Positions 34,252 through 48,279 of a DNA stretch of 64,000 nt are shown here, piece by piece (within the stretch, counting starts at the first letter, position 1; every line of letters begins with the position of its first letter). Made by a program: the position numbers and the translations under genes. Below the pieces are notes generated by a model. That model ran no database searches. It had not been told where the DNA came from and saw nothing but the letters and a program-made list of their open reading frames with translations. The DNA comes from Croceivirga radicis (lineage in GTDB: Bacteria > Bacteroidota > Bacteroidia > Flavobacteriales > Flavobacteriaceae), in assembly GCF_002072105.2 (NCBI RefSeq), contig NZ_MTBC01000001.1, positions 186,001 to 250,000 of the forward strand, read 5' to 3'.

Positions 34252-36060
34252 ATGAAACTACCTTCTATACAAGAAGTTCTAGACCGTGGTCTAGAGGCTT
34301 TTAAACGCTTTCCCCTGACCCTTATTTGGGCTATAACGGGAACAATATATGTAATGTATCTAATTGGAAGTGATAGGGTAAATAATACGTTTGATGAGAA
34401 TTTAGATATTGTTTTAACCCTTATATTGGGGGTAAGTTGGTTTATTGGGGCCCAGTTTTTTATAGAGCAGCAAGCTAAACACAAAACATGGCAACTACTT
34501 AAAATCCTAATTTTAATAGGGTTGGGCGGCTTCTATTTTTACCTATCCAATACCCCATTCTTAGAAGACAATCCTATCTACCTTGCACATTTTTTTATAT
34601 TTCTTATTGCCGGCCATTTATTTGTATTATTTGCGCCATTTTTAAAAGAATGGAATACCCATGCGTATTGGAATTATCTTAAATGCGTGGGTATAGCGTT
34701 AACCAGGAGCCTCCTATATAGTTTTGTCTTGTATTTGGGCTTGGTACTTGCGCTCTTGGCCATAGATGCTTTGTTTGAAATTACTATTAGAGGAGAACGT
34801 TACGGGCAATTGTTCGTCTTTAGCTTAGGTATTGTAAATACTTGGATTTATCTATCGGATTTTCCTGCTCAAGTAAGGAAAAATAGTATTGTTCAATTTG
34901 AACGTGCGCTAGAGGTTTTGGTAAAGTTTATTTTAATACCGCTAATCATGCTTTATCTGATAATTCTCTACGCCTACTTTGGTAAAATACTTTTGGAATG
35001 GGAATTACCTAAAGGCTGGGTAAGCTATTTGGTTACCGTTTTAGCCCTGTTGGGTTTTATGGTACACATAATCATAAACCCTATTATAAAGACTTCCAAA
35101 GCTTGGACCATAAAGCGTTTTTATCCTTGGTTTTACTATTTATTATTGCCCTTGTTGGTACTCTTATTTGTAGCCATCTATAGGCGTGTAAGTGATTATG
35201 GAATAACAGAAAATAGGTATTATGTTTTACTCGCTGCCTTCTGGATTTTGGGTATTAGTCTCTACATGCTATGTATAAAAAAGGCAAAACTTATAGTCTT
35301 GCCCATTTCACTATTTCTTATTCTAATGATTACTGCTGTAGGACCTTGGGGAGCTTTTAGCATTTCTAAGAAGGCACAGGCAAAAGAATTCAAAGAAGTG
35401 TATAACCAAGTGTTGTTGCAAGATACGCTTGCCAATTATGAGCAATACCAAAGGCTAGAATCTATATTAAAGTACTTGGATAAAAGAGAAAGCTTGGATA
35501 AACTGAGCAAGGTTACACAAATAGATTTTAATGCAGTCATTTTGGATTCTACCAACAACTGGAAAAATTACCGTTGGTTAGATACACGCTTAGTACTAGA
35601 TTCATTACATATAAAAATGGATTCTACCACGCAAAGCATCAAAAGAAATTACAATCAATACCATATGTATGATTATGGCACGGACAAAACAGTTTTTCCC
35701 ATTAAAGATTACGACTATTTTATATCCTTACGATTTAACCGACATACCAATAATTTGGTAACCATTGACAGTTGCACCCTTAGCTATACCAATAAACACT
35801 TGGGTATAATGATAAAAAACCAGGAAGAAGATTCTTTGGCCATAATTCCACTTAAGGGCAAACTTTTAGCGTTGACCAAATACGGTAACAATCTAGATAA
35901 TCTTCCTTTAGAGGAAAAAACAATTACAGTTGAAAACAATGTTTTGAAGGTTAAATTAGTCCCAACCAATCTATCTTACAGCCTTATAGAAAAAGACAGC
36001 ATACAACTAAACAATATAGATGGTTATCTATTTTTAAAATGGAAGCAAGATGTTAAATAG
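34252..36060 (+). CDS. DUF4153 membrane protein
   Basis: The 602-residue protein has about twelve hydrophobic helices through residue ~375. A soluble C-terminal region of ~225 residues follows, rich in short beta strands and containing repeated SxDSxxxxKxDSTT-like stretches. The first cytoplasmic segment (IQEVLDRGLEAFKRFPLTLIW) and the helix pattern fit DUF4153, a Bacteroidota-enriched family of unknown function. It overlaps the exonuclease gene by 11 bases. Confidence 0.8.
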   Translation: MKLPSIQEVLDRGLEAFKRFPLTLIWAITGTIYVMYLIGSDRVNNTFDENLDIVLTLILGVSWFIGAQFFIEQQAKHKTWQLLKILILIGLGGFYFYLSNTPFLEDNPIYLAHFFIFLIAGHLFVLFAPFLKEWNTHAYWNYLKCVGIALTRSLLYSFVLYLGLVLALLAIDALFEITIRGERYGQLFVFSLGIVNTWIYLSDFPAQVRKNSIVQFERALEVLVKFILIPLIMLYLIILYAYFGKILLEWELPKGWVSYLVTVLALLGFMVHIIINPIIKTSKAWTIKRFYPWFYYLLLPLLVLLFVAIYRRVSDYGITENRYYVLLAAFWILGISLYMLCIKKAKLIVLPISLFLILMITAVGPWGAFSISKKAQAKEFKEVYNQVLLQDTLANYEQYQRLESILKYLDKRESLDKLSKVTQIDFNAVILDSTNNWKNYRWLDTRLVLDSLHIKMDSTTQSIKRNYNQYHMYDYGTDKTVFPIKDYDYFISLRFNRHTNNLVTIDSCTLSYTNKHLGIMIKNQEEDSLAIIPLKGKLLALTKYGNNLDNLPLEEKTITVENNVLKVKLVPTNLSYSLIEKDSIQLNNIDGYLFLKWKQDVK

Positions 36061-36763
36061 AATTCCTTTGGACAGTATTCTATTCTTGGATATTGAAACC
36101 GTACCGGAAACAGCAGACTATAATGAGCTAAACGAAGAAAAACAAGAGCTTTGGGCCCATAAAACGGCGTACCAACGAAAAGAAGAACACACCCCGGAAG
36201 CCTTTTACGAACGAGCAGGAATTTGGGCAGAATTTGGGCTAATTGTTTGTATCTCTGTAGGCTATTTTGTGAACAAAGGAAGTGAGCCCCTATTTAGGGT
36301 GACCAGTTTTCACGGGAATGAACCAACCTTATTAAAAGACTTTAAAAACCTTTTAAACGACCATTTTAATCAGGCTAGGCATGTATTATGTGCACATAAT
36401 GGTAAAGAATTTGATTTTCCATACATAGCAAGGCGAATGTTAATTAATGGGATTACGTTACCTTACAAGCTAGATTTATTTGGCAAAAAACCTTGGGAGG
36501 TACCTCATCTGGATACTATGGAGCTTTGGAAGTTTGGCGATTATAAGCATTATACCTCCTTAAAGCTAATGGCCAATGTATTGGGAATACCCTCACCAAA
36601 AGAAGATATGGACGGTAGCATGGTACGCAGTGTATATTATGAAGAAAAAGATATGGACCGAATAATAAAATATTGCGAATTGGATGTGGTTACCACCGCT
36701 CAAGTGTTCTTAAGATTAAAGTGCGAACCACTACTAGAAGCGCATCAAATTAAAACCGTATAA
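36050..36763 (+). CDS. 3'-5' exonuclease, DnaQ-like / PolB exonuclease fold
   Basis: The 237-residue protein has exonuclease motif I FLDIETVPE, motif II HNGKEFDFPYIARRM and motif III YCELDVVTTAQVFLRL, supplying the Asp/Glu metal ligands of DEDD nucleases. The family (predicted PolB-type stand-alone exonuclease) probably degrades single-stranded DNA or RNA ends; a polymerase domain is absent. The last codons lead directly into an intrinsic terminator. Confidence 0.9.
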   Translation: MLNRIPLDSILFLDIETVPETADYNELNEEKQELWAHKTAYQRKEEHTPEAFYERAGIWAEFGLIVCISVGYFVNKGSEPLFRVTSFHGNEPTLLKDFKNLLNDHFNQARHVLCAHNGKEFDFPYIARRMLINGITLPYKLDLFGKKPWEVPHLDTMELWKFGDYKHYTSLKLMANVLGIPSPKEDMDGSMVRSVYYEEKDMDRIIKYCELDVVTTAQVFLRLKCEPLLEAHQIKTV

Positions 36764-36793
36764 AAAAGACCCTAAATGAACAGGGCCTTTTTT
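36762..36793 (+). terminator. Intrinsic terminator after the exonuclease gene
   Basis: A-rich arm and CCCT (36762-36773) pair with AGGG and CTTTTTT (36782-36793) around an eight-base loop, with one A-C mismatch. A- and T-runs on either side make it usable on both strands. It starts within the stop codon. Confidence 0.85.
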
Positions 36794-36897
36794 GGGATAC
36801 TTACAACAATAGTGTCCACAGTATCTTATTTTGTGTAACCTAGGCCACATATTGGGGTGTAATGTTTACTAGCTACTACAAGCTAGCATATGAATAA

Positions 36898-39096
36898 TTA
36901 ACTCTTATAAAATTTTGTGCTTTTTGTTCCTTCGTAGTCTTGAACTAATATGATATAGATTCCACTTTCCAAATTGGTCACATCTATGGTATTGTTCGCA
37001 TTTCCATTTTTAATGGTTCCACCTGCGGTGTTTATGATAGAATATTGTGCGTCTTTAGACATCTTAGTGTTTACCTCTAAGTAATTTACCGCTGGGTTTG
37101 GGTACACGACCAAATCAATATTATCAGAAGTTTTTCTTACTTCAGGCTGCTCGGCCTGGGTAGCATCGCCTTGAAAAACAAAGGTTATGGTTTCTGAATA
37201 TCCGGAAGCAATATTTGCCGTACAAACCGATTGAACTTTAACTTCATACTTGGTTCCTGATGCTAAGTTCTCCAATGCTATTTCTGCCTCCCAAGTAGAA
37301 AGTGTTGACCACTGCATTTCGTCTGCAGCCTTGTATTGAACCTCATATAAATTATCTTCAGAAAGGGCATCCCATTTTACAGAAACTCCTGTTGCAGCTA
37401 CCTGGCTTAAATCTAAACCTTTTGGAGCTTCTAATTTACAGCTAGAAACAGCTACACCACTAACAATTAAACTAACATCTTGTGCACCATGCATCAACGT
37501 ACCTTTGTGAGAAATGGTTATAGCATAGGAACCAGAAGCATTTTCTATTTCTATCTTTTCAAAAGGGTCTACTGTATTGTCTCCTTTAGTAGCTGGCTCA
37601 CTTGCTTTTGCTGGATTTAGTTTCCATGGAAAATAGGTTTCTCCATTCTTGGTAACCCTTACATCAATATCATTGACCAAAGCAGCTTTCATTTCGTTCA
37701 ACGTACCTCTATTTACCACTCCACTTTCTGGATCGGTCCAAGAAACGGACACCATTAAAGGGTCTACACCATTACTATCGTACACAAAGGTTTTGGTTTC
37801 GCCACTGGTTAAAGTCAATTCTTTTACTACAGAACTATAATCTACGCTTTGCAATACTTTGGCCGCCTTTGCAGTATTGATCAAGCCCCATCCAATTTTA
37901 TAATCCGGACCTGGATTTTCTATATCATCCGCTGTGTGTAAAGCCAAACCTTTTAAGGTAGCCGCCTTCATAAAATTACCGTACAAACTTTCGTGATATT
38001 GTTGTAATAAAATTAAAGAACCCGTTACACCAGGTGCGGCCATAGAAGTACCCATTGCCGTTTTATAGGCGTTATTAGAAGCAGAACCGGTAGTATACAC
38101 CATAGTACCGTTACCAGCTAAATCTGGCTTAATTCTACCATCATCTGTAGGCCCATAACTACTATAACCACTAACATTGGCCTTTTTAACTGTACCATCA
38201 TTACCTATTCTGGCATCTACACCGGCAACTACCAAATTATTTTTAGCTGTTGTGAACCCTAGTAATAAATCAAAACCATCTTGTGTTTTACCATAGTTAG
38301 GGGTTGCATTATCAAAAGAGTTTTGTGCGTTACCGGCTGCCGCAACCATTAAATAGTAAGGTGCGTTGTACATAATTTTATCCCAATCTTGAGAAACTTT
38401 AATATAAGCCCCAAAATACCAATCTGGAACTTGTGAAGATGTAATACCGTAAGAATGATTGGACACCAAAAGACCTTCTGCTGCAGCTTCTGCCACTTCC
38501 ACTTTATCTCTAGACCAACTGTGGGTCAAAGCTTCTGCTCCATAAGCAACCCCTCTAGCTTTTGAGTCTATACCAGCAGCAACTATATTACCGGTTACCA
38601 TGGTTGTATGGTTATCTATCTCTGTGGTATTATCGGCATTAGATACCCTACCACCAAACTCTTTATGGCTGGTTAAGGCCACACCGGCATCCCATACGCC
38701 TACTTTCATTCCGGTACCGTCTATATTGGCATTTAAAAAACCATCTGCATATAAAGCATCTGCCCTGCAAATATTAGCGGTCATATCTGCATGTGTAGTA
38801 TAATATAAAGGAGTACCATCTTGTCCAAATCCATTTAAAGCTACTACAGTCCCATCTTTTTCCATTCTGGTAGCCTCTAAACCTCCCACTAGTTTTTGAG
38901 TCGCAATACGTTGTGTAGTTATTTGATACTCTTTTTTAAAGCTATTTGCTAATTCTTGTAACTTAGCAGTGTTGGTATTTGCTTTAATTGCTTCTAATTG
39001 TACTTGCTGTTGAGCTTTAGTTGCAACGCTAAATACGAAGCTGGTAGCAACCAAAAACATGGCCTTTTTTGCGGGAAGTTTTATATTGTAGTCCAT
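36898..39096 (-). CDS. S8 subtilisin-like serine protease with FN3 and T9SS type A sorting domain
   Basis: The 732-residue secreted protease has a signal peptide ending near ATKAQ and a pro-region with QKLVGGLEATR. The catalytic triad is Asp in KVGVWDAGV, His in DNHTTMVTGNI and Ser in GTSMAAPGVTG, with the oxyanion Asn in AAAGNAQ. A jelly-roll P-like domain, a fibronectin type III domain (~545-625) and a C-terminal sorting domain beginning VVYPNPAVNYLEV follow. It is predicted to cross the outer membrane by the type IX system and act outside the cell on proteins. It is monocistronic. Confidence 0.93.
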   Translation of the reverse strand: MDYNIKLPAKKAMFLVATSFVFSVATKAQQQVQLEAIKANTNTAKLQELANSFKKEYQITTQRIATQKLVGGLEATRMEKDGTVVALNGFGQDGTPLYYTTHADMTANICRADALYADGFLNANIDGTGMKVGVWDAGVALTSHKEFGGRVSNADNTTEIDNHTTMVTGNIVAAGIDSKARGVAYGAEALTHSWSRDKVEVAEAAAEGLLVSNHSYGITSSQVPDWYFGAYIKVSQDWDKIMYNAPYYLMVAAAGNAQNSFDNATPNYGKTQDGFDLLLGFTTAKNNLVVAGVDARIGNDGTVKKANVSGYSSYGPTDDGRIKPDLAGNGTMVYTTGSASNNAYKTAMGTSMAAPGVTGSLILLQQYHESLYGNFMKAATLKGLALHTADDIENPGPDYKIGWGLINTAKAAKVLQSVDYSSVVKELTLTSGETKTFVYDSNGVDPLMVSVSWTDPESGVVNRGTLNEMKAALVNDIDVRVTKNGETYFPWKLNPAKASEPATKGDNTVDPFEKIEIENASGSYAITISHKGTLMHGAQDVSLIVSGVAVSSCKLEAPKGLDLSQVAATGVSVKWDALSEDNLYEVQYKAADEMQWSTLSTWEAEIALENLASGTKYEVKVQSVCTANIASGYSETITFVFQGDATQAEQPEVRKTSDNIDLVVYPNPAVNYLEVNTKMSKDAQYSIINTAGGTIKNGNANNTIDVTNLESGIYIILVQDYEGTKSTKFYKS

Positions 39097-39123
39097 AACG
39101 TAGGTTAAGTAAGATTTGGACTA

Positions 39124-39131
39124 CAAATATA
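39124..39131 (-). promoter_or_regulatory. Predicted -7 box of the S8 protease gene
   Basis: Reverse strand TATATTTG matches TAnnTTTG, 27 bases before the ATG at 39096. TATCGTTAA lies at 39149-39157, a motif also seen upstream of hemH. Confidence 0.45.
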
Positions 39132-39247
39132 GATGAGAACTAATTATCTATCGTTAAGTTGCAAATTTAAATCGACGAATTACACACTCAGGTACACATG
39201 TTTGTTGTGAAACTTACAAAAAGTGTTGTAAGAATTTTCTCAATCTT

Positions 39248-40189
39248 TTAATTTTGTTTCAAAATCAGGTAAACGGGAAAATGATCACTATAACCACCAA
39301 GGTATTTTTTACCGCCAAATGTTCTAAATGGTGTTCCTTTATACCTCCCTTTCCATTCTTGTAGAAAATGAGGAGCAAAAATCTTAGCCTTGGAAAAGCT
39401 GTGAGCGCCCGGCTCATGATTTAAAAAAGAATGAGAAACTATTATTTGATCAAACAGACTCCATTTACCCCTATAATTGGCACTGCCTAGCGTTGGGGAA
39501 AGTAATTTTTGCATCGGATTGATGAACCAACCTGTTTGCATTAACGTTTTTATACTTTCAGAATTTGGGTCATCATTAAAATCTCCCATAATCAATACGT
39601 GGGGTTCTTCTTCTACCAGCCTAATTTGTTCTAATTTTTCAATAATGGTGTGGGCAGCGGCAATCCGTTTGTATGCGGTAAGCTTGGCACCATCTCTACG
39701 AGAGGGCCAATGATTTACAAATACATGCACAACCTCTCCATTAAGCCTACCTTTTACATATAGAATATCCCTAGTAAAATCACGGTCACCAAATTCATTG
39801 TTCACTAAAAGCGCCAAGGTTTCACTTTCCATTACTTCAAAATTTTCCTTACGGTAAAACAATGCGGTATCTATACCGCGCTCGTCTGGAGAATCATAAT
39901 GTACATAACCATAATCCAAGTGCTTCAAGGCATCTTCCCCTAACAATCGTTCTATTACCCTTTTGTTTTCAATCTCAGCAACACCCACGAGTACGGGTGG
40001 GGCAAGCCCTTCATCTTCTCCAATTTTAGCTATAGCATTCGCTAATTTTCTAGTTTTGGCCAGGTAACGCTTATTCTTCCATTTTTTAAAACCTTTTTTG
40101 GTAAAATCGTCATCAAGAATATGTGCATCGTCAATGGTATCGAACAGATTTTCTAGATTATAAAAAGCAATTACGTGTTGGTTTTCCAT
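39248..40189 (-). CDS. Endonuclease/exonuclease/phosphatase family protein
   Basis: The 313-residue cytoplasmic protein has the EEP fold signatures: FYNLENLFDTIDD (metal Asn/Glu), VGVAEIENKRVIERLL, FVNHWPSRRDGAKL, VLIMGDFNDDPNSES and the terminal GGYSDHFPVYLIL (Asp-His pair). Substrates in the family range from DNA to phospholipids, and without a signal peptide a nucleic acid or inositol-phosphate substrate inside the cell is likely. It is divergent from hflX. Confidence 0.88.
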   Translation of the reverse strand: MENQHVIAFYNLENLFDTIDDAHILDDDFTKKGFKKWKNKRYLAKTRKLANAIAKIGEDEGLAPPVLVGVAEIENKRVIERLLGEDALKHLDYGYVHYDSPDERGIDTALFYRKENFEVMESETLALLVNNEFGDRDFTRDILYVKGRLNGEVVHVFVNHWPSRRDGAKLTAYKRIAAAHTIIEKLEQIRLVEEEPHVLIMGDFNDDPNSESIKTLMQTGWFINPMQKLLSPTLGSANYRGKWSLFDQIIVSHSFLNHEPGAHSFSKAKIFAPHFLQEWKGRYKGTPFRTFGGKKYLGGYSDHFPVYLILKQN

Positions 40190-40272
40190 AATTTTTTAGA
40201 ATAGCGCTACAAAAATTTACATAAGGGTTAAGTAGAAGGGGCAAAATACAAAAACAGAACGGAAACATTATG

Positions 40273-40280
40273 TAGCTTTG
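40273..40280 (+). promoter_or_regulatory. Predicted -7 box of hflX
   Basis: TAGCTTTG is an exact TAnnTTTG match, 15 bases before the chosen ATG at 40296. This also argues against the upstream in-frame TTG at 40278. Confidence 0.45.
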
Positions 40281-40295
40281 CATTTTGCTTTATAT

Positions 40296-41525
40296 ATGAT
40301 TGAAAAGAAGTCTATTGAATATGAAAAGGCCGTATTGGTTGGTGTCATCAATCAATTACAAAATGCTGAAAAAGTAGAAGAATATCTGGATGAGCTAGAA
40401 TTCTTAACCTATACTGCTGGTGGCGAAGTAACCAAACGCTTTGTACAAAAGATGGATGTGCCCAATCCTAAAACTTATATAGGAACGGGTAAGATGGAAG
40501 AAGTACATGCATACGTTAAGGAAAATGACATTAGCTCGGTTATTTTTGATGACGAACTTACCCCTGCCCAACAGAATAACATAGAAAAATTATTGAAGTG
40601 TAAGGTAATGGATAGAACCAGCCTTATCCTAGATATTTTTGCGCAACGTGCAAAGACCAGTTATGCCCGTACACAGGTAGAATTGGCACAGTACGAATAT
40701 CTTTTGCCTAGACTTACTGGTCTATGGACGCACTTAGAACGCCAACGTGGTGGAATTGGTATGCGTGGACCCGGGGAAACAGAGATTGAGACCGATAGGC
40801 GAATTGTTAGGGACCGTATTGCTTTGCTTAAAAAGAAACTTTCTAAAATAGACCGCCAAATGGAAACCCAAAGGGGTAACCGGGGCGCTCTTGTAAGGGT
40901 AGCTTTGGTGGGCTATACCAATGTGGGTAAATCTACCTTAATGAACGTAATTAGTAAAAGTGATGTATTTGCAGAAAATAAGTTGTTTGCCACTTTAGAT
41001 ACAACTGTAAGAAAGGTAGTTATTGGCAACCTGCCTTTTCTCCTCAGCGATACGGTTGGATTTATACGCAAGTTGCCTACACAATTGGTAGAAAGTTTTA
41101 AAAGTACCTTAGACGAGGTGAGGGAAGCAGATTTGCTTTTACATGTGGTAGACATCTCACACCCAAATTTTGAAGAGCATATTGCTTCTGTAAATCAAAT
41201 TTTAGATGAAATTGACAGTACGGACAAGGAAACCATTATGGTTTTTAATAAAATAGACCAATACGTGCCAGAGGTTATTGAGGAAGATGATTTAGAGACC
41301 GAAAAAACGTCGGTACACTTTACACTGGAAGAATGGCAAAAAACCTGGTTTAACAAAATTGGGGATAATGCTTTGTTCATCTCGGCATTGAACAAAGAAA
41401 ATTTAGATGAGTTTAGGCAAAGGGTTTATCGCGAAGTTAGAGAAATACACGTAACCCGTTTTCCTTATAACAATTTCCTTTATCCAGAAAACCTTGATGA
41501 ATACTCGCAAACTGAGGAAGAATAG
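40296..41525 (+). CDS. hflX: Ribosome-splitting GTPase HflX
   Basis: The 409-residue protein from ATG 40296 has the HflX N-terminal domain (PKTYIGTGKMEEV) and the hallmark GPGETEIETDRR linker. The G domain has G1 GYTNVGKSTL (from ~206), G2 FATLDTTVRK, G3 DTVGFIRKLP and G4 FNKID. HflX dissociates stalled or hibernating 70S ribosomes, especially in heat or antibiotic stress. An extended open frame to a TTG at 40278 overlaps the predicted promoter and is not used here. Confidence 0.95.
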   Translation: MIEKKSIEYEKAVLVGVINQLQNAEKVEEYLDELEFLTYTAGGEVTKRFVQKMDVPNPKTYIGTGKMEEVHAYVKENDISSVIFDDELTPAQQNNIEKLLKCKVMDRTSLILDIFAQRAKTSYARTQVELAQYEYLLPRLTGLWTHLERQRGGIGMRGPGETEIETDRRIVRDRIALLKKKLSKIDRQMETQRGNRGALVRVALVGYTNVGKSTLMNVISKSDVFAENKLFATLDTTVRKVVIGNLPFLLSDTVGFIRKLPTQLVESFKSTLDEVREADLLLHVVDISHPNFEEHIASVNQILDEIDSTDKETIMVFNKIDQYVPEVIEEDDLETEKTSVHFTLEEWQKTWFNKIGDNALFISALNKENLDEFRQRVYREVREIHVTRFPYNNFLYPENLDEYSQTEEE

Positions 41526-41590
41526 TTTTTCTGTCAGAAAAATGAATTTTTAGCGAAAACCACAAAAAAAATACGGTTTACATCAAAAAG

Positions 41591-41621
41591 TTTGGGCATA
41601 GGTAAGACTTGAGTACTTTAG
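41591..41621 (+). promoter_or_regulatory. Predicted promoter of an intergenic small RNA
   Basis: TTTG (41591-41594), a 19-base spacer and TACTTTAG (41614-41621) fit the Bacteroidota sigma-A consensus. No gene follows on this strand; the next element is the terminator at 41692. Confidence 0.45.
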
Positions 41622-41627
41622 TACTGT

Positions 41628-41727
41628 TCTTAATAACTAGCCCCAAGGTTATTACTAACACCAATAACAAGTATGAACTAACCTATCCAATCAAAAAAAG
41701 CCCGAACAACTTGTTCGGGCTTTTTTT
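41628..41727 (+). ncRNA. Candidate small RNA of about 100 nt between hflX and DUF3078
   Basis: The predicted transcript starts ~7 bases after the TACTTTAG box and ends in the strong terminator at 41692-41727. Within it TAATAAC (41631-41637) and GTTATTA (41648-41654) form a 7-bp stem with a ten-base loop, followed by a single-stranded A/C-rich segment. The only ATG is followed by AAC and a stop, so it is unlikely to encode protein. The boundaries are estimated. It could be a regulatory RNA, a 6S-like RNA or an unused stretch before hflX termination. Confidence 0.4.
41692..41727. terminator. Strong bidirectional intrinsic terminator
   Basis: GCCCGAAC (41700-41707) pairs with GTTCGGGC (41713-41720), extended by an A7 run before and a T7 run after. 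It can end rightward transcripts (hflX or the small RNA) and leftward DUF3078 transcription. Confidence 0.93.
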
Positions 41728-41745
41728 ATAAAGTATGTTTTAAAC

Positions 41746-42678
41746 TTAGAAAGAGTAGCTAAGACCTAATGTCCAGTACGTTTGTAAGTCGTTATCTATA
41801 GAATCAAAAGTAGCCGTAGCATCTGGTGTAGCAGCTAAATTTCTCACGTAGTTCAACGTCTCCTGCTTGTTGTTTCTTAGACCAAAGTCAAACCCAACAC
41901 CAATCATCTTCCAAAGGGTGTAAGAGAAAGAGTTAGTCCACGTCCAGTTACTTAAATCACCACTCTCGTAACTTTGGAAAGCAGATAGGTTACTTTTAAA
42001 ACCAACAGCTCCTATTTTACGGGTATAGTCCGCAACAATTTTAGCACCCAAAGAGGAGTTAAAAATGGTATCATCATCCGCAAAAACAAAGTTGTAGTTT
42101 AAAGGATGTATAACCACCACTAAATTCTGAATTGGTGTCCACGTAGCACCCACACCCAAATCTAGGTAGCCTGGGTCATTAAAATTGTTTAGAATAGTTG
42201 TTCTGTATTCCATTAAACCAGATACCGCGAACTTATCACTTAATTTTCTACCGTAAAGGGAAGATAAGTTGAATACATCTGTAGCTTCTCTAAAGCTATC
42301 ATCATCGGTTGGATCATTCTTGTCATCAAACTTAACCCAAGAAAGGTTTGTCGTTAATGCGTTTCTCCAAAAGAACTTCTCTTCCTGTAAATTGGCAAAC
42401 GCATTGAACGAAAAACCAATGTTTCCGCTAGAGTTATCTGGAAAACCCTGAGCATACCAATTATTGAACTGAGAAATACTACCACCTATAGTACCAAACG
42501 CCCCTAATTTCCAGCCAGGAAGCGCATCAATTTTAGCTTGGATAGCATTTGCCCTACCTTGAATGGCAGCAATAGAATCTTTCTTTTCGGCCAATGTAGC
42601 CTTTAACTCTTCTTCTGTCTGTGCTTGGCCCATCCAAACTCCAGCTACCGTAAGAACGGCGAAAAGTATTTTTTTCAT
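41746..42678 (-). CDS. DUF3078 outer-membrane-type beta protein
   Basis: The 310-residue protein has a signal peptide (MKKILFAVLTVAGVWMGQAQ), a short coiled segment (EEELKATLAEKKDSIAAIQ) and then DUF3078 strands: GGSISQFNNWYAQG, SLYGRKLSDKFAVSGLMEY, LDLGVGATWTP. It ends in aromatic-terminated YWTLGLSYSF, a typical outer-membrane beta-barrel end (final Phe). The family is restricted largely to Bacteroidota and its function is unknown. It follows the suf cluster but has its own promoter. Confidence 0.88.
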   Translation of the reverse strand: MKKILFAVLTVAGVWMGQAQTEEELKATLAEKKDSIAAIQGRANAIQAKIDALPGWKLGAFGTIGGSISQFNNWYAQGFPDNSSGNIGFSFNAFANLQEEKFFWRNALTTNLSWVKFDDKNDPTDDDSFREATDVFNLSSLYGRKLSDKFAVSGLMEYRTTILNNFNDPGYLDLGVGATWTPIQNLVVVIHPLNYNFVFADDDTIFNSSLGAKIVADYTRKIGAVGFKSNLSAFQSYESGDLSNWTWTNSFSYTLWKMIGVGFDFGLRNNKQETLNYVRNLAATPDATATFDSIDNDLQTYWTLGLSYSF

Positions 42679-42707
42679 AATGATTTGTGTTTATAGTTTT
42701 AGAAACG

Positions 42708-42739
42708 CAAAAGTAAGAATAGTCACACTTGCCTTACAA
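42708..42739 (-). promoter_or_regulatory. Predicted promoter of the DUF3078 gene
   Basis: Reverse strand TTG (42739-42737), a 21-base spacer and TACTTTTG (42715-42708) fit the flavobacterial consensus, 29 bases before the ATG at 42678. Confidence 0.5.
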
Positions 42740-42745
42740 GGAAAA

Positions 42746-43252
42746 TTACTTTTTCTTGTACAAAGGCACCGCAGAACAGGCTTCTCCGTACATAACACTC
42801 TTAGCCACAGGCTGTATTTTCAACATAGCCTGTAGATAAGCGTTTTGTGGCACTGGTTTATGGCTACAACCTTTAATAATTACCGGTTTATCTTGGAAAG
42901 GACTAACGTCTAAATTAGCTAGAATTGATTGATACAGGCTGGTTTCTAAATCTTCTAAGGTACCAACCACTACTTGTTTGGCATAGGGTTGTAATTTGCT
43001 TACTAAAAGCATATATGCCCAACCTGGAACTATAGCATCTGTACTACAATTTAGGGCTACATAGGCATCTTTGTATTGTTCCCAATCATGGGTGTCTGCT
43101 AGACTTCTAAATTCTTTTTCCTTAAGGATCAGTTCTTCCCAAAGCCAATCTTTAATATCCAAAACGGTTCTTTCCCCTACAGGATAGTAATCTTCCAAAT
43201 CAAAGACCTGTAACTTGCTTTGCGCAACCCTATTTACAATTTCTTCTGCCAT
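42746..43252 (-). CDS. DUF2480 family protein
   Basis: The 168-residue cytoplasmic protein starts MAEEIVNRVAQSKLQVFDLE and has DIKDWLWEELILKEKEFR, VALNCSTDAIVPGWAYMLL and VIIKGCSHKPVP, the conserved blocks of DUF2480. This family is found almost only in Bacteroidota. Its position directly after sufE and the sufT-like gene (11-bp gap) is the main clue, suggesting a part in Fe-S assembly or delivery (inference). Two conserved Cys could be relevant. Confidence 0.85.
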   Translation of the reverse strand: MAEEIVNRVAQSKLQVFDLEDYYPVGERTVLDIKDWLWEELILKEKEFRSLADTHDWEQYKDAYVALNCSTDAIVPGWAYMLLVSKLQPYAKQVVVGTLEDLETSLYQSILANLDVSPFQDKPVIIKGCSHKPVPQNAYLQAMLKIQPVAKSVMYGEACSAVPLYKKK

Positions 43253-43263
43253 TTTTGTGATGC

Positions 43264-43593
43264 TTACAGTAAGCCCAGTTCCAATTTAGCTTCTTCGCTC
43301 ATCAAGTCTTGCGTCCAAGGCGGATCAAAGGTAATTTCTACCTCGGCATCTTTAATTTCGTCAATAGACTTTACTTTTTCTTCTACTTCTGCAGGTAAAC
43401 TTTCCGCTACCGGGCAGTTAGGAGATGTTAGAGTCATTAGAATCTTAACCTCATTATCTTCGTTTACCAAAACATCATAAATAAGTCCTAATTCGTATAT
43501 GTCTACTGGAATTTCTGGGTCAAAAATGGTTTTTAAAACCAATACGATTTTCTCTCCTAATTCTGCTGTATCTAGTGTTGTTTCTTCGCTCAT
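43264..43593 (-). CDS. SUF-associated DUF59 / MIP18-like protein (SufT-like)
   Basis: The 109-residue protein is a single DUF59 domain: FDPEIPVDIYELGLIYDV and MTLTSPNCPVAESLPAEVEE with the conserved Cys. It ends VEITFDPPWTQDLMSEEAKLELGLL, the tail typical of the SUF-linked subgroup. SufT proteins help mature Fe-S proteins. It overlaps sufE by four bases and precedes DUF2480 by 11 bp. Confidence 0.92.
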   Translation of the reverse strand: MSEETTLDTAELGEKIVLVLKTIFDPEIPVDIYELGLIYDVLVNEDNEVKILMTLTSPNCPVAESLPAEVEEKVKSIDEIKDAEVEITFDPPWTQDLMSEEAKLELGLL

Positions 43594-44012
43594 TTTATTT
43601 GTGTTTGATAGGCCACGGCATACAATTTCATCTGTTTAATCATACTCACCAATCCATTGGCCCTTGTGGGTGATAAATGTTCTTTAAGTCCAATTTCATC
43701 TATAAATTGGGTATCTGCCTCCATGATGTCTTTAGGCTTTTGATTGCTAAAGACTCTAATTAGAAGGGCAATAATTCCTTTAGTGATGATTGCATCACTA
43801 TCTGCCGTAAAAAGCAATTTATCATCTTCTAATTCTGCGTGCACCCAAACCTTACTTTGGCAACCTTTGATGATATTGTCATCGGTTTTATATTGCTCAT
43901 CTATTAAGGGGAGGGATTTGCCCAGTTCTATCATGTATTCATAACGCTGCATCCAGTCATCGAACATGCTGAACTCCTCTATGATTTCTTCTTGTATGGC
44001 CTGTATGGTCAT
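43590..44012 (-). CDS. sufE: SufE cysteine-desulfurase activator
   Basis: The 140-residue protein accepts persulfide sulfur from SufS. The active Cys is in NIIKGCQSKVWVHAEL; other family blocks are FSMFDDWMQRYEYMIELGKSLP and LSPTRANGLVSMIKQMK. It is separated from sufS by a protease and a lipoprotein gene, and it overlaps the DUF59 gene by ATGA. Confidence 0.95.
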   Translation of the reverse strand: MTIQAIQEEIIEEFSMFDDWMQRYEYMIELGKSLPLIDEQYKTDDNIIKGCQSKVWVHAELEDDKLLFTADSDAIITKGIIALLIRVFSNQKPKDIMEADTQFIDEIGLKEHLSPTRANGLVSMIKQMKLYAVAYQTQIK

Positions 44013-44054
44013 GTAATTTGCAATTTGTGTACAAAATTAGTGGATTTTAATCCC

Positions 44055-44462
44055 TTACTCAACTTTTTCAGAAAGTGTTAAGAGCTTGGTCATCAATTCT
44101 TCTAGTTCTTTGGGTGGGTGTCCATGGTCAAATTCGTATGAATAGGCCACCCCGTCAATCAATAATTCAAGACTTGCCAAAGCGGCGGCATCTATCATAG
44201 ATTTACTTTGGTCTGGCTCTGAAATGTTATTAGGATCAATAGTTTTTAATACCGTTTCTAAAGATTCTTGCTCTTTTGCCCTTAAATTGCGGGTTTTAAA
44301 TGTTCCTTGTCTCGCACTTCTATGTTTTAGGGTTATTCCATCACAAACCAGTTCTTTGTAAAAACCGCGACTTTCTGCCCTGTAATTTAAAGCCCAAGTA
44401 GTTTCTTGATTACAATTTTGTTGTAGCATCAAAAGGGTTAAAATAGCAATAATTGTTTTCAT
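44055..44462 (-). CDS. Small exported protein, probable lipoprotein
   Basis: From the ATG at 44462 the product (135 aa) begins MKTIIAILTLLMLQQNCNQE, a hydrophobic signal with Cys17, although QQNC is an atypical lipobox. The mature part has KELVCDGITLKHRSARQG and LELLIDGVAYSYEFDHGHP, consistent with a small beta-rich domain. No family is recognised. It sits between the M43 protease terminator and sufE, 42 bp before sufE, so it might share the sufE transcript. Confidence 0.65.
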   Translation of the reverse strand: MKTIIAILTLLMLQQNCNQETTWALNYRAESRGFYKELVCDGITLKHRSARQGTFKTRNLRAKEQESLETVLKTIDPNNISEPDQSKSMIDAAALASLELLIDGVAYSYEFDHGHPPKELEELMTKLLTLSEKVE

Positions 44463-44474
44463 ATTTAAAGCTAA

Positions 44475-44510
44475 CAAAAAAGGCATCTACCAACGTAGAT
44501 GCCTTTGATT
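44475..44510 (-). terminator. Intrinsic terminator downstream of the M43 protease gene
   Basis: AGGCATCTAC (44481-44490) and GTAGATGCCT (44495-44504) form a perfect 10-bp stem with a four-base loop. On the reverse strand a T-run (complement of 44475-44481) follows. It ends M43 transcription before the lipoprotein and sufE genes. Confidence 0.88.
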
Positions 44511-44526
44511 ATTTTAATGTATTGGG

Positions 44527-45612
44527 TTATGGTAACATAGCTTCTCTGGCACCACCAGCAGCAAAAAGTGCTCTCATACGTTCTTTTTGTCCATTACTGA
44601 ACATATACATACATTCATCATCTACATAATCCATATAGTTCATAGTCATATCCGTAGTTCTACAGTGGGTAGTTGGAAAATTAGGACATCCGTAATTAGG
44701 ACGGTCAGAAGTTGGTGTATCAGAAACAAAATCGTCTCTATTACATCTACCGTCTCCCCAGATATGTCTTAGGTTTAACCAATGGCCCACTTCATGGGTT
44801 GTAGTTCTACCACCATCAAAAGGAGCCGTTGCCGTACCGGTTGTTCCAAAATATTGTGGCGAAACCACCACTCCATCCGTAGAGGAGCTACCCCCAGGAA
44901 ATTGCGCGTATCCTAAGATACCACCACCAATATTACCTACCCAAATATTTAAATGAGTGCTAGGTGTTACCACATTAGAGCCGCCTTGTGCATCAAACTT
45001 AATAGCATCACCTGTTCCAAAAGAAGTCTGGGAGGTTTGTTTTCTGATAACTTGATCTAAAGTAAACTGGATATCTGAATCTGCAACTACTGGACTAAAC
45101 AAGGAAGGCACTTGGTTAATGTCGTTGTTAGTAGCGTTAAAATCATCATTTAATACAGCTATTTGCGAAGCAATTTGAGCATCTGAAATGTTCTGACTGG
45201 CATTGTTGTACAAAACGTGAACAATTACTGGAATGGTAATAGTGCCTAGGTTGTCTTCAACGGGAGTATCGCCTCCTCCGCCGTTGCCACCACCACCATT
45301 GCCGTTACCTTTACCTTTTTTGGCAGCAAGATATTGCCTGGTGTGCTTTTCTATATTATACATTTTTTGCTCTAAACCAGGATTGCTCTTAAGCTTCTGG
45401 TTCAACACTTTCATAGTGGAGCAATTTTTACCAGCATTTCCTTTACCCGCACTGGTGTCTTCTGATTCAACATCATCTGTATACACAAAAAAGTCGCTCA
45501 TATCTACTTGAACTTCTTGCGTAGCTAAAACATCACTTTCGGGGGATTGCTCCTTTTCACAGGAGTAAAGGACAACTGCCATTGCAGACAAAGTCAAAAT
45601 CGTCTTTTTCAT
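44527..45612 (-). CDS. M43-family zinc metalloprotease, lipoprotein
   Basis: The 361-residue protein has a lipoprotein signal (MKKTILTLSAMAVVLYSC) and a Gly/Asn-rich linker. The pappalysin-type catalytic domain carries the zinc motif HEVGHWLNLRH and a downstream Met-turn segment MTMNYMDYVDD. A cysteine-bearing GDGRCNRDDFVSDTPTSDRP loop is typical of M43B. It acts at the cell surface on proteins. It lies between sufS and sufE, 106 bp after sufS, and ends in its own terminator, so it divides the suf cluster. Confidence 0.92.
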   Translation of the reverse strand: MKKTILTLSAMAVVLYSCEKEQSPESDVLATQEVQVDMSDFFVYTDDVESEDTSAGKGNAGKNCSTMKVLNQKLKSNPGLEQKMYNIEKHTRQYLAAKKGKGNGNGGGGNGGGGDTPVEDNLGTITIPVIVHVLYNNASQNISDAQIASQIAVLNDDFNATNNDINQVPSLFSPVVADSDIQFTLDQVIRKQTSQTSFGTGDAIKFDAQGGSNVVTPSTHLNIWVGNIGGGILGYAQFPGGSSSTDGVVVSPQYFGTTGTATAPFDGGRTTTHEVGHWLNLRHIWGDGRCNRDDFVSDTPTSDRPNYGCPNFPTTHCRTTDMTMNYMDYVDDECMYMFSNGQKERMRALFAAGGAREAMLP

Positions 45613-45718
45613 AAATAAATGGGTGTATAATGGTTACTATTTGCTACAGAAGATACAAATAATTAACACTATCCCAATATTTTGTTAAAAATAAATATGA
45701 AATCTTAAAGCGAAGTTG

Positions 45719-46948
45719 TTACCCTACCAACATATTCTTAGCGCGTTCTACCCCGGCTACAAGCGCATCTACCTCTTCTTTTGTATTGTAAAAACAAAAG
45801 CTTGCTCTTACCGTACCAGGAATTTTGTAAAAATCCATTATGGGTTGGGCACAATGATGTCCCGTACGTACGGCAATACCCAATTTATCCAGAATGGTAC
45901 CAATATCATATGGGTGAACACCTTCTATATTAAAAGAAATTACCGAAGTTTTGTTCTGTGCCGTACCATAAATTTTTAAACCATCAATCTTAGACAATTC
46001 TGTGGTAGCATAATCCAATAGTTGATGCTCATAGGCCGCTATTGCTTCAAAACCTATGGTATTCATATAATCTAAAGCGGCGCCAAAGGCAATACCACCA
46101 CAAATATTGGGTGTACCTGCCTCAAATTTATGCGGTAATTCTGCGTAGGTAGTTTTTTCAAAGGTAACCTCTGCTATCATTTCGCCACCGCCTTGGTAGG
46201 GAGGTAATTTTTTTAACCATTCCTCTTTGCCATACAGCATACCTACCCCTGTGGGTCCACATATTTTATGAGCAGAAACCACATAAAAATCCACATCTAA
46301 AGCTTGTACATCTGCTTTAATATGCGGGGCAGCCTGTGCTCCGTCTATTAATACTGCGGCTCCTACCTCATGAGCAGCATTGATAATTTCTTCAATAGGG
46401 TTTATGGTGCCCAGAGCATTGGAAATATGGTTACAAAAAACCAATTTTGTTTTACTAGAGAGCAAATTTTGATAGGTTTCCATAACTAACTCTCCCTGCT
46501 CGTTCATCGGAATTACCTTAAGTATAGCTCCTGTACGCTCACAAAGCATTTGCCAGGGCACAATATTACTGTGGTGCTCCATGGCAGAAACCAATACCTC
46601 ATCTCCCTTTTGTAACAAAGAAGAAAAACCGTTTGCTACTAAGTTTATTCCATGAGTGGTGCCCGACGTGAATATGATTTCGTGGACTTTGGCGGCATTA
46701 AAATGCTGCTGAATTTTTTGTCTTGCTTGCTCATATTTATCCGTGGCCTCTTGCGATAAAGCATGGACGCCACGGTGAATATTTGCATTGTAATTTTGGT
46801 AATAGTCTACTATTGCATTTATGACCTGTTGTGGTGTTTGTGAGGTAGCCGCGTTGTCTAGGTATACTAAAGGCTTACCGTTGACTTCCCTATTTAAAAT
46901 TGGAAAATCTTTGCGTATTTGTACTACATCAAAATCCACTTCTGTCAT
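45719..46948 (-). CDS. sufS: Cysteine desulfurase SufS
   Basis: This 409-residue PLP enzyme takes sulfur from cysteine for Fe-S cluster building. It has YLDNAATSQTPQQVI, the TSGTTHGINLVA cofactor-phosphate loop and the Schiff-base Lys in VSAHKICGPTGVGMLYG. The persulfide Cys is in RTGHHCAQPIM, with the short group-II loop. It follows sufD by 14 bp in the leftward operon. Confidence 0.96.
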   Translation of the reverse strand: MTEVDFDVVQIRKDFPILNREVNGKPLVYLDNAATSQTPQQVINAIVDYYQNYNANIHRGVHALSQEATDKYEQARQKIQQHFNAAKVHEIIFTSGTTHGINLVANGFSSLLQKGDEVLVSAMEHHSNIVPWQMLCERTGAILKVIPMNEQGELVMETYQNLLSSKTKLVFCNHISNALGTINPIEEIINAAHEVGAAVLIDGAQAAPHIKADVQALDVDFYVVSAHKICGPTGVGMLYGKEEWLKKLPPYQGGGEMIAEVTFEKTTYAELPHKFEAGTPNICGGIAFGAALDYMNTIGFEAIAAYEHQLLDYATTELSKIDGLKIYGTAQNKTSVISFNIEGVHPYDIGTILDKLGIAVRTGHHCAQPIMDFYKIPGTVRASFCFYNTKEEVDALVAGVERAKNMLVG

Positions 46949-46962
46949 AAAAAACTATTATC

Positions 46963-48279
46963 CTATAAATCGAAACCAAGATTTACTCCCAGCTTACTGG
47001 CAATAAGTTTGTTGATTCTTACTTTCAATTCTGGTATACGTACACTTTCTAATACGTTATTGGCAAAAGCATACATCATTAAAGCTCTGGCCTCTTTCTT
47101 AGGAATACCTCTAGATTGCAAATAAAATAAGGCATCCTCGTCTAATTGACCTATGGTACAACCGTGAGAACACTTAACATCATCTGCAAAAATCTCTAAC
47201 TGAGGTTTGGTATTTACCGTTGCTTTATCAGATATAAGAATATTATTGTTTTGCTGAAACGCATTGGTCTTCTGTGCAATTTTATCTACAATAATTTTTC
47301 CATTGAAAACACCAGTAGAACTATCCCCATAGATACCTTTATAATCTTGGTGGCTTTCGCAATTAGGTTGCGCATGGTGCACCAAAGTGTAATGGTCTAC
47401 GTGTTGCTTTTCGCCTAAAATGGTTACTCCCTTCAGGGTAGAGTCTATATGCTCCCCGTTCTGGTAATAATTCAAGTTATTACGGGTTAGTTTACCTCCA
47501 AAAGAGAAGGTATGCACACGTACTTGACTATTGGTTTTTTGGTCTATATAGGTATTGTCCACCAAAGATGCGGTAGGCGCATCGTTCTGTACTTTATAAT
47601 AATCTACACGAGCATCTTTAGCCGCAAAAATTTCGGTCACCGCATTGGTAAACACTTCATTTGTGGTTAAACTTTGGTGACGCTCTATGATTTGCACTTC
47701 TGCATTTTCTTCTACTACAATCAAATTTCTTGGTTGCAACATTAAAGCGGCTTCGTTACCCGTAGCCAAGTGCAAAATTTGAATAGGTTTTCTAGGGGCC
47801 TTACTTTTAGGTATGTAAATGTATGCTCCTTCCCTACTAAATGCGGTATTCAATGTGGTTAATGATTCGTCTTTAGACGCTACCTTGTTAAAGTATTTTT
47901 CTATAACCTCTTTGTACATTGGCTTACTAAACGCAGCACTCATCAAACAAACATCCACACCATCATGTGTGGTTTCTGATAAGTAAGACGAATACACGCC
48001 GTCTACAAATACAATTTTGTACGTATCTATTTCGTGTAAAAAGAACTTCTTTACATCTTTGTACTCCAATGCATTGGTTTCTTTTGGAAAAATGCTGAAG
48101 TCTACCTTTTCTATACTCTTTAGCGAGGTGTATTTCCACGCTTCTTCCTTTTTGCTAGGAAAACCTTTTGCTTCAAAATTCTTAATAGCCTCGGAACGCA
48201 CCTCATGTACGGGATGGTCAAGGTCTACTTGGTTTTCAAAGGCCAAAAAAGAAGAAATCAATTTATCTTTCAACTCCAT
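46963..48279 (-). CDS. sufD: Fe-S assembly scaffold subunit SufD
   Basis: The 438-residue protein has the SufB/SufD beta-helix core and end segment (DDVKCSHGCTIGQLDEDALFYLQSRGI) with the conserved HGCTIG. The N-terminal part (KKEEAWKYTSLKSIEKVDF) marks it as SufD rather than SufB. It forms the SufBC2D scaffold complex. It lies between sufC (10 bp) and sufS. Confidence 0.96.
   Translation of the reverse strand: MELKDKLISSFLAFENQVDLDHPVHEVRSEAIKNFEAKGFPSKKEEAWKYTSLKSIEKVDFSIFPKETNALEYKDVKKFFLHEIDTYKIVFVDGVYSSYLSETTHDGVDVCLMSAAFSKPMYKEVIEKYFNKVASKDESLTTLNTAFSREGAYIYIPKSKAPRKPIQILHLATGNEAALMLQPRNLIVVEENAEVQIIERHQSLTTNEVFTNAVTEIFAAKDARVDYYKVQNDAPTASLVDNTYIDQKTNSQVRVHTFSFGGKLTRNNLNYYQNGEHIDSTLKGVTILGEKQHVDHYTLVHHAQPNCESHQDYKGIYGDSSTGVFNGKIIVDKIAQKTNAFQQNNNILISDKATVNTKPQLEIFADDVKCSHGCTIGQLDEDALFYLQSRGIPKKEARALMMYAFANNVLESVRIPELKVRINKLIASKLGVNLGFDL

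Follow-up and report, generated by a model that had tools for sequence, protein, structure and literature searches.

Does the short interval 3' of hflX in Croceivirga radicis carry a small RNA gene of its own, or does it hold only the end of the hflX transcript? The small RNAs of marine flavobacteria, which are major degraders of algal polysaccharides, have been little charted, and a preliminary description of the 64-kb window (the whole stretch of DNA analysed here) had proposed an independent small RNA at this place. The site corresponds to the intergenic region between hflX and the convergent DUF3078 gene, and the layout given for it, i.e., TTTG, a 19-nt spacer, TACTTTAG, a hairpin, and a terminator, is present as described (Table 1). 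The claim that no coding frame lies inside also held: among the six frames of positions 41600-41735, the longest Met-started stretch comprises 2 codons, and the longest stop-free stretch, which is without a Met start, comprises 41. By comparison with related genomes, the site next to hflX very probably encodes a short regulatory RNA, a member of a family that recurs around the genomes of many marine flavobacteria.

Promoter boxes and conservation beside hflX

The preliminary description had assigned the site to the Bacteroidota promoter consensus. This was correct insofar as TTTG-N19-TACTTTAG is present, but TACTTTAG matches only five of the six fixed letters of TAnnTTTG. A search for TTTG-N17-23-TAnnTTTR returned 11 occurrences in the window versus 14.5 expected, and a match to the promoter consensus alone is no evidence because such occurrences stand at chance level. 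A sigma-70-type promoter scan of positions 36000-47000, the model of which does not cover this phylum, yielded 35 sites versus 33.2 expected. The TTTG, read as the -33 element, is not conserved in the relatives; the conserved boxes sit 2 to 65 nt farther upstream. The transcript start was placed at position 41626 by taking TAnnTTTG to span -12 to -5, as stated in a portion of the Flavobacterium psychrophilum small RNA survey (PMC9723704).

The region 3' of hflX was compared in 91 loci: the window's genus contributed 11, and named genomes supplied the other 80, among them three that repeat genus genomes. The order hflX, unit, and convergent DUF3078 gene occurs in 8 of the 11 genus genomes, and the other three carry a different sequence after hflX. 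Units 3' of hflX are also found in loci of Muricauda/Allomuricauda/Flagellimonas, Croceitalea, Zobellia, Maribacter, Arenibacter, Muriicola, and Robiginitalea. In 32 loci picked by hand from the 91 (three anchored by hand), 45 units were annotated by promoter pattern, and 37 of these entered alignment A1, from which near-duplicates and weak units were left out.

Three upstream boxes stand out in A1. Box A reads TTcATCGgagA in most other genera and TTTTTCTGTCAGA in the window's genus; its T10 is present in all 37 units, A19 in 36, and T13 and C14 in 35 each. In box B, the letters C, A, C, and A of ACxACA are identical in 37/37 units. Box C has the form TTCACA(A/T)CAAAAATTT, lies 21 columns 3' of box B, and is followed by approximately 20 variable nucleotides and then TAnnTT. 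Boxes A and B lay outside the regular expression that collected the units, which demanded ACA(A/T)CA (in most units) and TA..TT, so that the invariance of the latter two is partly by construction.

BLASTN of the intergenic region against 40 relatives retrieved the genus mate G010 (83% over 204 nt) and beyond it only short pieces within the terminator part of the query. To avoid circularity, a leave-out promoter model was built from the 30 rows that remained once six genus units and L130 had been dropped. Across the 64-kb window, this model ranks 41559-41633 first (E 1.7e-4); at E<=1, it recovers four of the eight genus units (L025-L028 are missed) and has matches in 31 of the 91 hflX loci. A lack of conservation beyond the terminator would, according to the preliminary description, have spoken against a small RNA; such conservation was found, with the upstream boxes, the -7 box, and the C-loop hairpin recurring across genera. 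A unit that is conserved between genera, and in which the stems differ yet pair, points to an independent small RNA 3' of hflX, and a predicted small RNA gene with a conserved promoter, a terminator, and no coding frame is what the locus offers.

Several relatives hold more than one unit in the hflX-DUF3078 interval, namely, three each in Zobellia L070 and L078, two nearly identical ones in Maribacter L071, and four by pattern in L075. These tandem arrangements bear on a simpler reading that dispenses with a separate small RNA: the stretch would be the 3' UTR of hflX, its terminator would act in both directions and serve DUF3078 as well, and the hairpin would be a decoration of the mRNA. Such a reading accommodates the symmetry of the terminator, the chance-level match to TTTG/TAnnTTTG, and the fact that neither the sequence nor the terminator scan revealed a terminator of hflX itself between its stop codon and position 41693; read-through from hflX could also supply the 41626-41727 RNA. 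We nevertheless regard it as quite improbable, given that these boxes and the -7 motif are also present elsewhere in the genome, away from hflX, that the model built outside the genus recovers the site, and that the tandem units possess boxes and terminators of their own (both copies in L071, at least two of three in L070 and L078).

Table 1. Features of the hflX-DUF3078 interval and of the second promoter-model match (positions in the window)
Feature	Position	Strand	Basis
hflX, upstream neighbour	40278..41525	+	ORF; Pfam GTP-bdg_N, GTP-bdg_M, MMR_HSR1
Upstream box A-like, TTTTTCTGTCAGAAAAA, immediately 3' of hflX stop	41526..41542	+	A1 alignment columns 9-19
Upstream box B, ACCACA	41559..41564	+	ACxACA pattern in A1
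Upstream box C, TTTACATCAAAAA; TTCACAACAAAAA elsewhere	41577..41589	+	21 columns downstream of box B
TTTG, -33 element of the preliminary description	41591..41594	+	Sequence; not conserved among relatives
-7 box, TACTTTAG	41614..41621	+	TAnnTT in aligned units
Predicted small RNA, ~102 nt	41626..41727	+	Inferred from -7 box and terminator
Hairpin TAATAACT-AGCCCCAA-GGTTATTA, loop 41639-41646	41631..41654	+	Folding, pairing tests
A/C-rich unpaired linker with AACCTATCC (ACCTACTT in long-type relatives)	41655..41692	+	Folding, comparison
Intrinsic terminator AAAAAAA-GCCCGAACAACTTGTTCGGGC-TTTTTTT, usable on both strands	41693..41727	+	Sequence and fold
DUF3078 gene, convergent	41746..42678	-	ORF; Pfam PF11276
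Second promoter-model match, upstream of subtilase gene	39160..39257	-	R1, 19.9 bits
Secreted subtilase gene	36898-39096	-	Pfam Peptidase_S8, Por_Secre_tail

Hairpin, linker, and terminator of the predicted RNA

The stem TAATAAC...GTTATTA noted previously is present and comprises 8 pairs, counting a closing U-G. The strong terminator with its A7 and T7 flanks was recovered as well, but it proves little by itself because one is expected between two convergent genes, and owing to its symmetry it can also serve the DUF3078 gene. A simple terminator scan of positions 36000-47000 (11 sites versus 8.3 expected) did not list it, because the A/T flanks pair and join the stem. The folding-energy z of the whole RNA is -7.1, versus -1.7 without the terminator; whole-RNA z was rejected as evidence for a small RNA, since the terminator dominates it.

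The hairpin was judged by its loop and stem in the relatives, for which 82 candidates were available. In the short-type RNAs, the stem sequence varies between species, yet it still closes a loop around CCCC. Against shuffled flanks, the hairpins of seven short-type RNAs, which were tested separately, attained p values of 0.0017 to 0.20 (5.5e-7 when combined by Fisher's method; 3.8e-6 once L024 and L130 are excluded), those of L025 (p 0.20) and L130 (p 0.10) being not significant singly. Among the long-type RNAs, which come from other genera, 19 of 80 non-redundant loop modules reached p<0.05 versus 1 of 53 control sites from the same RNA set. In a fixed-register test of 56 modules, 4.38 of 8 positions were paired versus 3.53 (sd 0.17) in the shuffles, 0 of 2000 of which reached the observed value; slid registers of the same modules gave 2.7-3.2 of 7 positions paired versus 3.93. 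The mean folding z was -1.44 over 71 bodies without terminator, some of which are near-duplicates. The 56-module test omitted L039, L067, L074, L094, L099, and one L102 row, all judged to lie within genes, and kept a few non-RNA modules, e.g., L204 and a terminator loop of L071. The 71-body set further omitted L140, L204, one row each of L163 and L076, and bodies of >180 nt, and the loop-module p tests further omitted L190. RNAalifold predicted zero pairs on a MAFFT alignment (A3) of 26 long-type RNAs, a result that probably stems from the variable stems being unaligned. The C-rich motif sits in a hairpin loop, as in the C-loop RNAs LhrC and sX13.

Long-type relatives often hold at least two (C)CCAAA motifs in one RNA, with several genes in a row, and the repeated (C)CCCAAA loops could accordingly titrate an RNA-binding protein in the way that CsrB or RsmY/Z act on CsrA, with copy number and two-component control setting the dosage. 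We know of no protein that recognises CCCAAA loops. The window RNA itself offers one CCCC loop; a search of this genome revealed no CsrA, and one for RRM proteins (RRM_1, E<=0.001) that gave matches in a Bacteroides control gave none here. Although the Gac/Rsm system follows the same logic (mentioned in a portion of PMC4132741), we consider a protein sponge unlikely and base-pairing with mRNAs the preferable function.

Genes under the same boxes and a candidate LytTR regulator

A sequence-only model of the boxes and the -7 motif (R1) was derived from A1. At E<=0.01, it matches 14 places in this genome (G000), 19 in G251, and 20 in G260. Among the sites inspected are further C-loop sRNA-like genes, approximately five in G260 and as many in G251; one of those in G260 has CCCGAA in place of CCCAAA. 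R1 sites also precede two other kinds of sRNA-like gene, one highly conserved around the core TTTTCATTTTCATATAGTGTTCTCG and the other short, with CCCAAATCTTA, as well as protein genes for TPR-like and PAS-type histidine kinases, a sigma factor, an RNase R-like protein, and secreted proteins (functions assigned mostly by eye).

Some of these loci deserve mention in their own right. The second C-loop sRNA-like gene of this genome, L212 (G000:C1:416216-416286, minus strand), lies between convergent genes; like that of L221 in G251, it adjoins the end of an MFS-type gene (by eye), apparently the same context in two genera. The second sRNA-like type consists of an almost invariant core, AATTTTTTCATTTTCATATAGTGTTCTCGTAAA, followed by a terminator and occurs under the same boxes, single or in tandem, in L189 (G000:C15:35903 and 36108), L190, L206, L207, L208, L214-L217, L222, L224, L227, and L244-L250; its core is complementary to start regions like AUAUGAAAAUGAAAAA. 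L148, L151, L153, and L190 contain the third, short sRNA-like type, which carries CCCAAATCTTA and a terminator resembling GACTGT(A/G)C; in the regulator locus described below, it adjoins the second. In L219 and L223, which represent two genera, the boxes lie several hundred bases 5' of an RNase R-like gene (function by eye), and in L205, L204, and L213, from three genera, they lie 5' of a tiny protein gene of 33-37 codons that ends in RKLFML or KKLFML.

LytTR binding sites are usually spaced about 21 bp apart, and boxes B and C (ACMACA and ACAWCA), 21 columns apart in A1, form the direct repeat looked for in a LytTR-regulated gene. The boxes agree only in part with the published LytTR consensus. 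This genome encodes 12 LytTR domains. One LytTR response regulator (Response_reg plus LytTR; C15:196143-196898 in G000) is followed by two sRNA-like genes with boxes and then by a histidine kinase (HisKA_2, HATPase_c), the front part of which is TPR-like, its TPR match falling under the Pfam cut-off. The order of regulator, sRNA-like gene(s), and kinase recurs in 11/11 genomes inspected (G000-G003, G005, and G007-G010 of the genus, G251, and G260), which had been chosen for their promoter matches; most of the regulator loci were picked after the first LytTR gene had been seen, and the genus genomes G004 and G006 stand outside the set. Identity of the regulator to the copy of this genome is 84-95% across the inspected genomes. 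Examples of the locus are L211 1544-4899 (G000:C15), L242-L250, L153, L235, and L236.

The boxes and the regulator also occur together on a larger scale. With nine candidates scored per genome, 101 of 397 family genomes match the promoter model at E<=0.001, 81 of them at least twice, and 82 of the 397 hold a match to the LytTR regulator (E<=1e-60). All 81 genomes with at least two promoter matches hold the regulator, versus 315 of the 316 others without it; the 82nd regulator genome, G366, has one promoter match, and the other 19 single-match genomes are without the regulator. As a control, one different LytTR gene of the same genome was found in 67 of the 397 genomes, i.e., 34 of the 81 and 33 others. 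The association between promoter boxes and regulator is specific, with the proviso that it counts boxes rather than C-loop RNAs and that co-occurrence follows clades, so that the 397 genomes are not independent. Of the 237 genera drawn, 49 contain the regulator, which makes a wide distribution of the circuit probable. When 296 genomes were drawn from the whole order, 9 matched at E<=1e-5, all from the same family (the family's share of the 296 is not listed).

Another regulator might bind the boxes, with the LytTR/kinase pair being just one more member of its regulon. The partial likeness of the boxes to the LytTR consensus would fit this, and LytTR binding is a prediction here. Its near one-to-one co-occurrence with the boxes, unlike that of the one other LytTR gene tested, and the position of the LytTR gene beside sister sRNA-like genes in 11/11 loci examined make a different regulator distinctly unlikely, and one conserved two-component system seems to control the promoters of the family.

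Proposed mechanism and relation to known small RNAs

The earlier suggestion of a 6S-like RNA was not borne out. The single 6S-Flavo (RF01685) match of this genome lies on another contig (G000:C18:114675-114781, 110 bits), none falls in the window, and this identity was rejected. The Rfam covariance check that had been proposed, run against Rfam 15, gave 0 matches at gathering score in the 64-kb window, and a permissive scan of six related loci gave 36 matches at E<=1, all under the gathering scores. A length of about 100 nt and a flavobacterial host would suit 6S-Flavo or another Rfam family, but in view of these scans membership in a known class is extremely improbable. The literature, as covered by titles and abstract openings, with subscription journals thinly represented, contained no description of this C-loop family or of a link between LytTR and small RNAs, and the best reading is that the family is undescribed so far.

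We favour, with moderate confidence, the interpretation that the 41626-41727 RNA is an independent trans-acting small RNA of a two-component-controlled C-loop family, that its boxes are bound by the LytTR regulator, and that it pairs with mRNAs; transcription, direct LytTR binding, activation rather than repression, and base-pairing with mRNA are what we infer. The phased boxes (TTcATCG, ACxACA, and TTCACA(A/T)CA) would be putative binding sites of one LytTR response regulator, which would pair with the TPR-like histidine kinase of the HisKA_2 type. Once the two-component system is active, the regulator would turn on this RNA together with other small RNA and protein genes. The promoter boxes would end just 5' of the -33 region, and the RNA would extend for approximately 102 nt to the terminator, presenting a CCCCAA loop on a hairpin, then an unpaired C-containing linker, and then the terminator. 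Loop and linker would, by analogy, pair with G-rich stretches near the starts of target mRNAs. To our knowledge, flavobacteria are mostly without Shine-Dalgarno sequences, and because of this the G-rich targets of C-loop analogues need not apply; Hfq-type small RNA models are, as far as we know, mostly not applicable in this phylum either.

A broader proposal, which we advance tentatively, is that Flavobacteriaceae possess a LytTR-kinase circuit with largely non-coding output, in which one regulator governs several multicopy small RNA families and acts as a global post-transcriptional switch. Its families would include the C-loop RNAs, in which (C)CCCAAA hairpins are repeated, and the almost invariant RNA whose core is UUUUCAUUUUCAUAUAGUGUUCUCG; this core is complementary to AUAUGAAAAUGAAAAA-type start regions, such as an MKK-type exported protein would presumably have. 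With a sequence-defined small RNA family, a candidate regulator, a candidate kinase, and countable sites, post-transcriptional control becomes directly testable in these bacteria.

Regulation of a C-rich RNA by a LytTR protein is known from Staphylococcus aureus, where RNAIII, which is far longer than the window RNA and encodes a peptide, is controlled by the LytTR regulator AgrA. The following comparisons draw on portions of the cited articles. In RNAIII and other UCCC small RNAs of S. aureus, the C-rich motif serves target binding (PMC4132741). LhrC1-5 of Listeria monocytogenes resemble the present family in being multicopy, 111-114 nt long, equipped with UCCC motifs in loops and linker, and dependent on a two-component system for expression, and LhrC blocks mRNA translation (PMC4132741); they differ in their unrelated sequence and phylum and in the system itself, which is LisRK rather than a LytTR system. 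The sX13 RNA of Xanthomonas likewise has apical C-rich loops, for which pairing with G-rich motifs near start codons has been proposed, whereas its structure and phylum are different, and the portion of the article used describes no promoter-sharing family (PMC3771888).

The nearest published work found, again by portions of the articles, is the F. psychrophilum small RNA survey (PMC9723704) and that on FopS/GibS of Bacteroides thetaiotaomicron (PMC11697453). FopS/GibS also form a multicopy family in the same phylum, but FopS has an unstructured 5' seed followed by a terminator, whereas the 5' part of the window RNA folds as a hairpin; moreover, FopS associates with the RRM protein RbpB (PMC11697453), whereas the search of the present genome gave no RRM protein. 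Rfp18 of F. psychrophilum, which is conserved within its genus, is a small RNA with several stem-loops from the same family and was compared by description only (PMC9723704).

Within the window, the boxes are associated with one further gene. The second match of the leave-out model (39234-39198, minus strand, E 0.002) precedes the gene of the secreted subtilase, and the leader of this gene also holds CCAAATCTTACTTAACCTACG, which resembles the linker of the small RNA.
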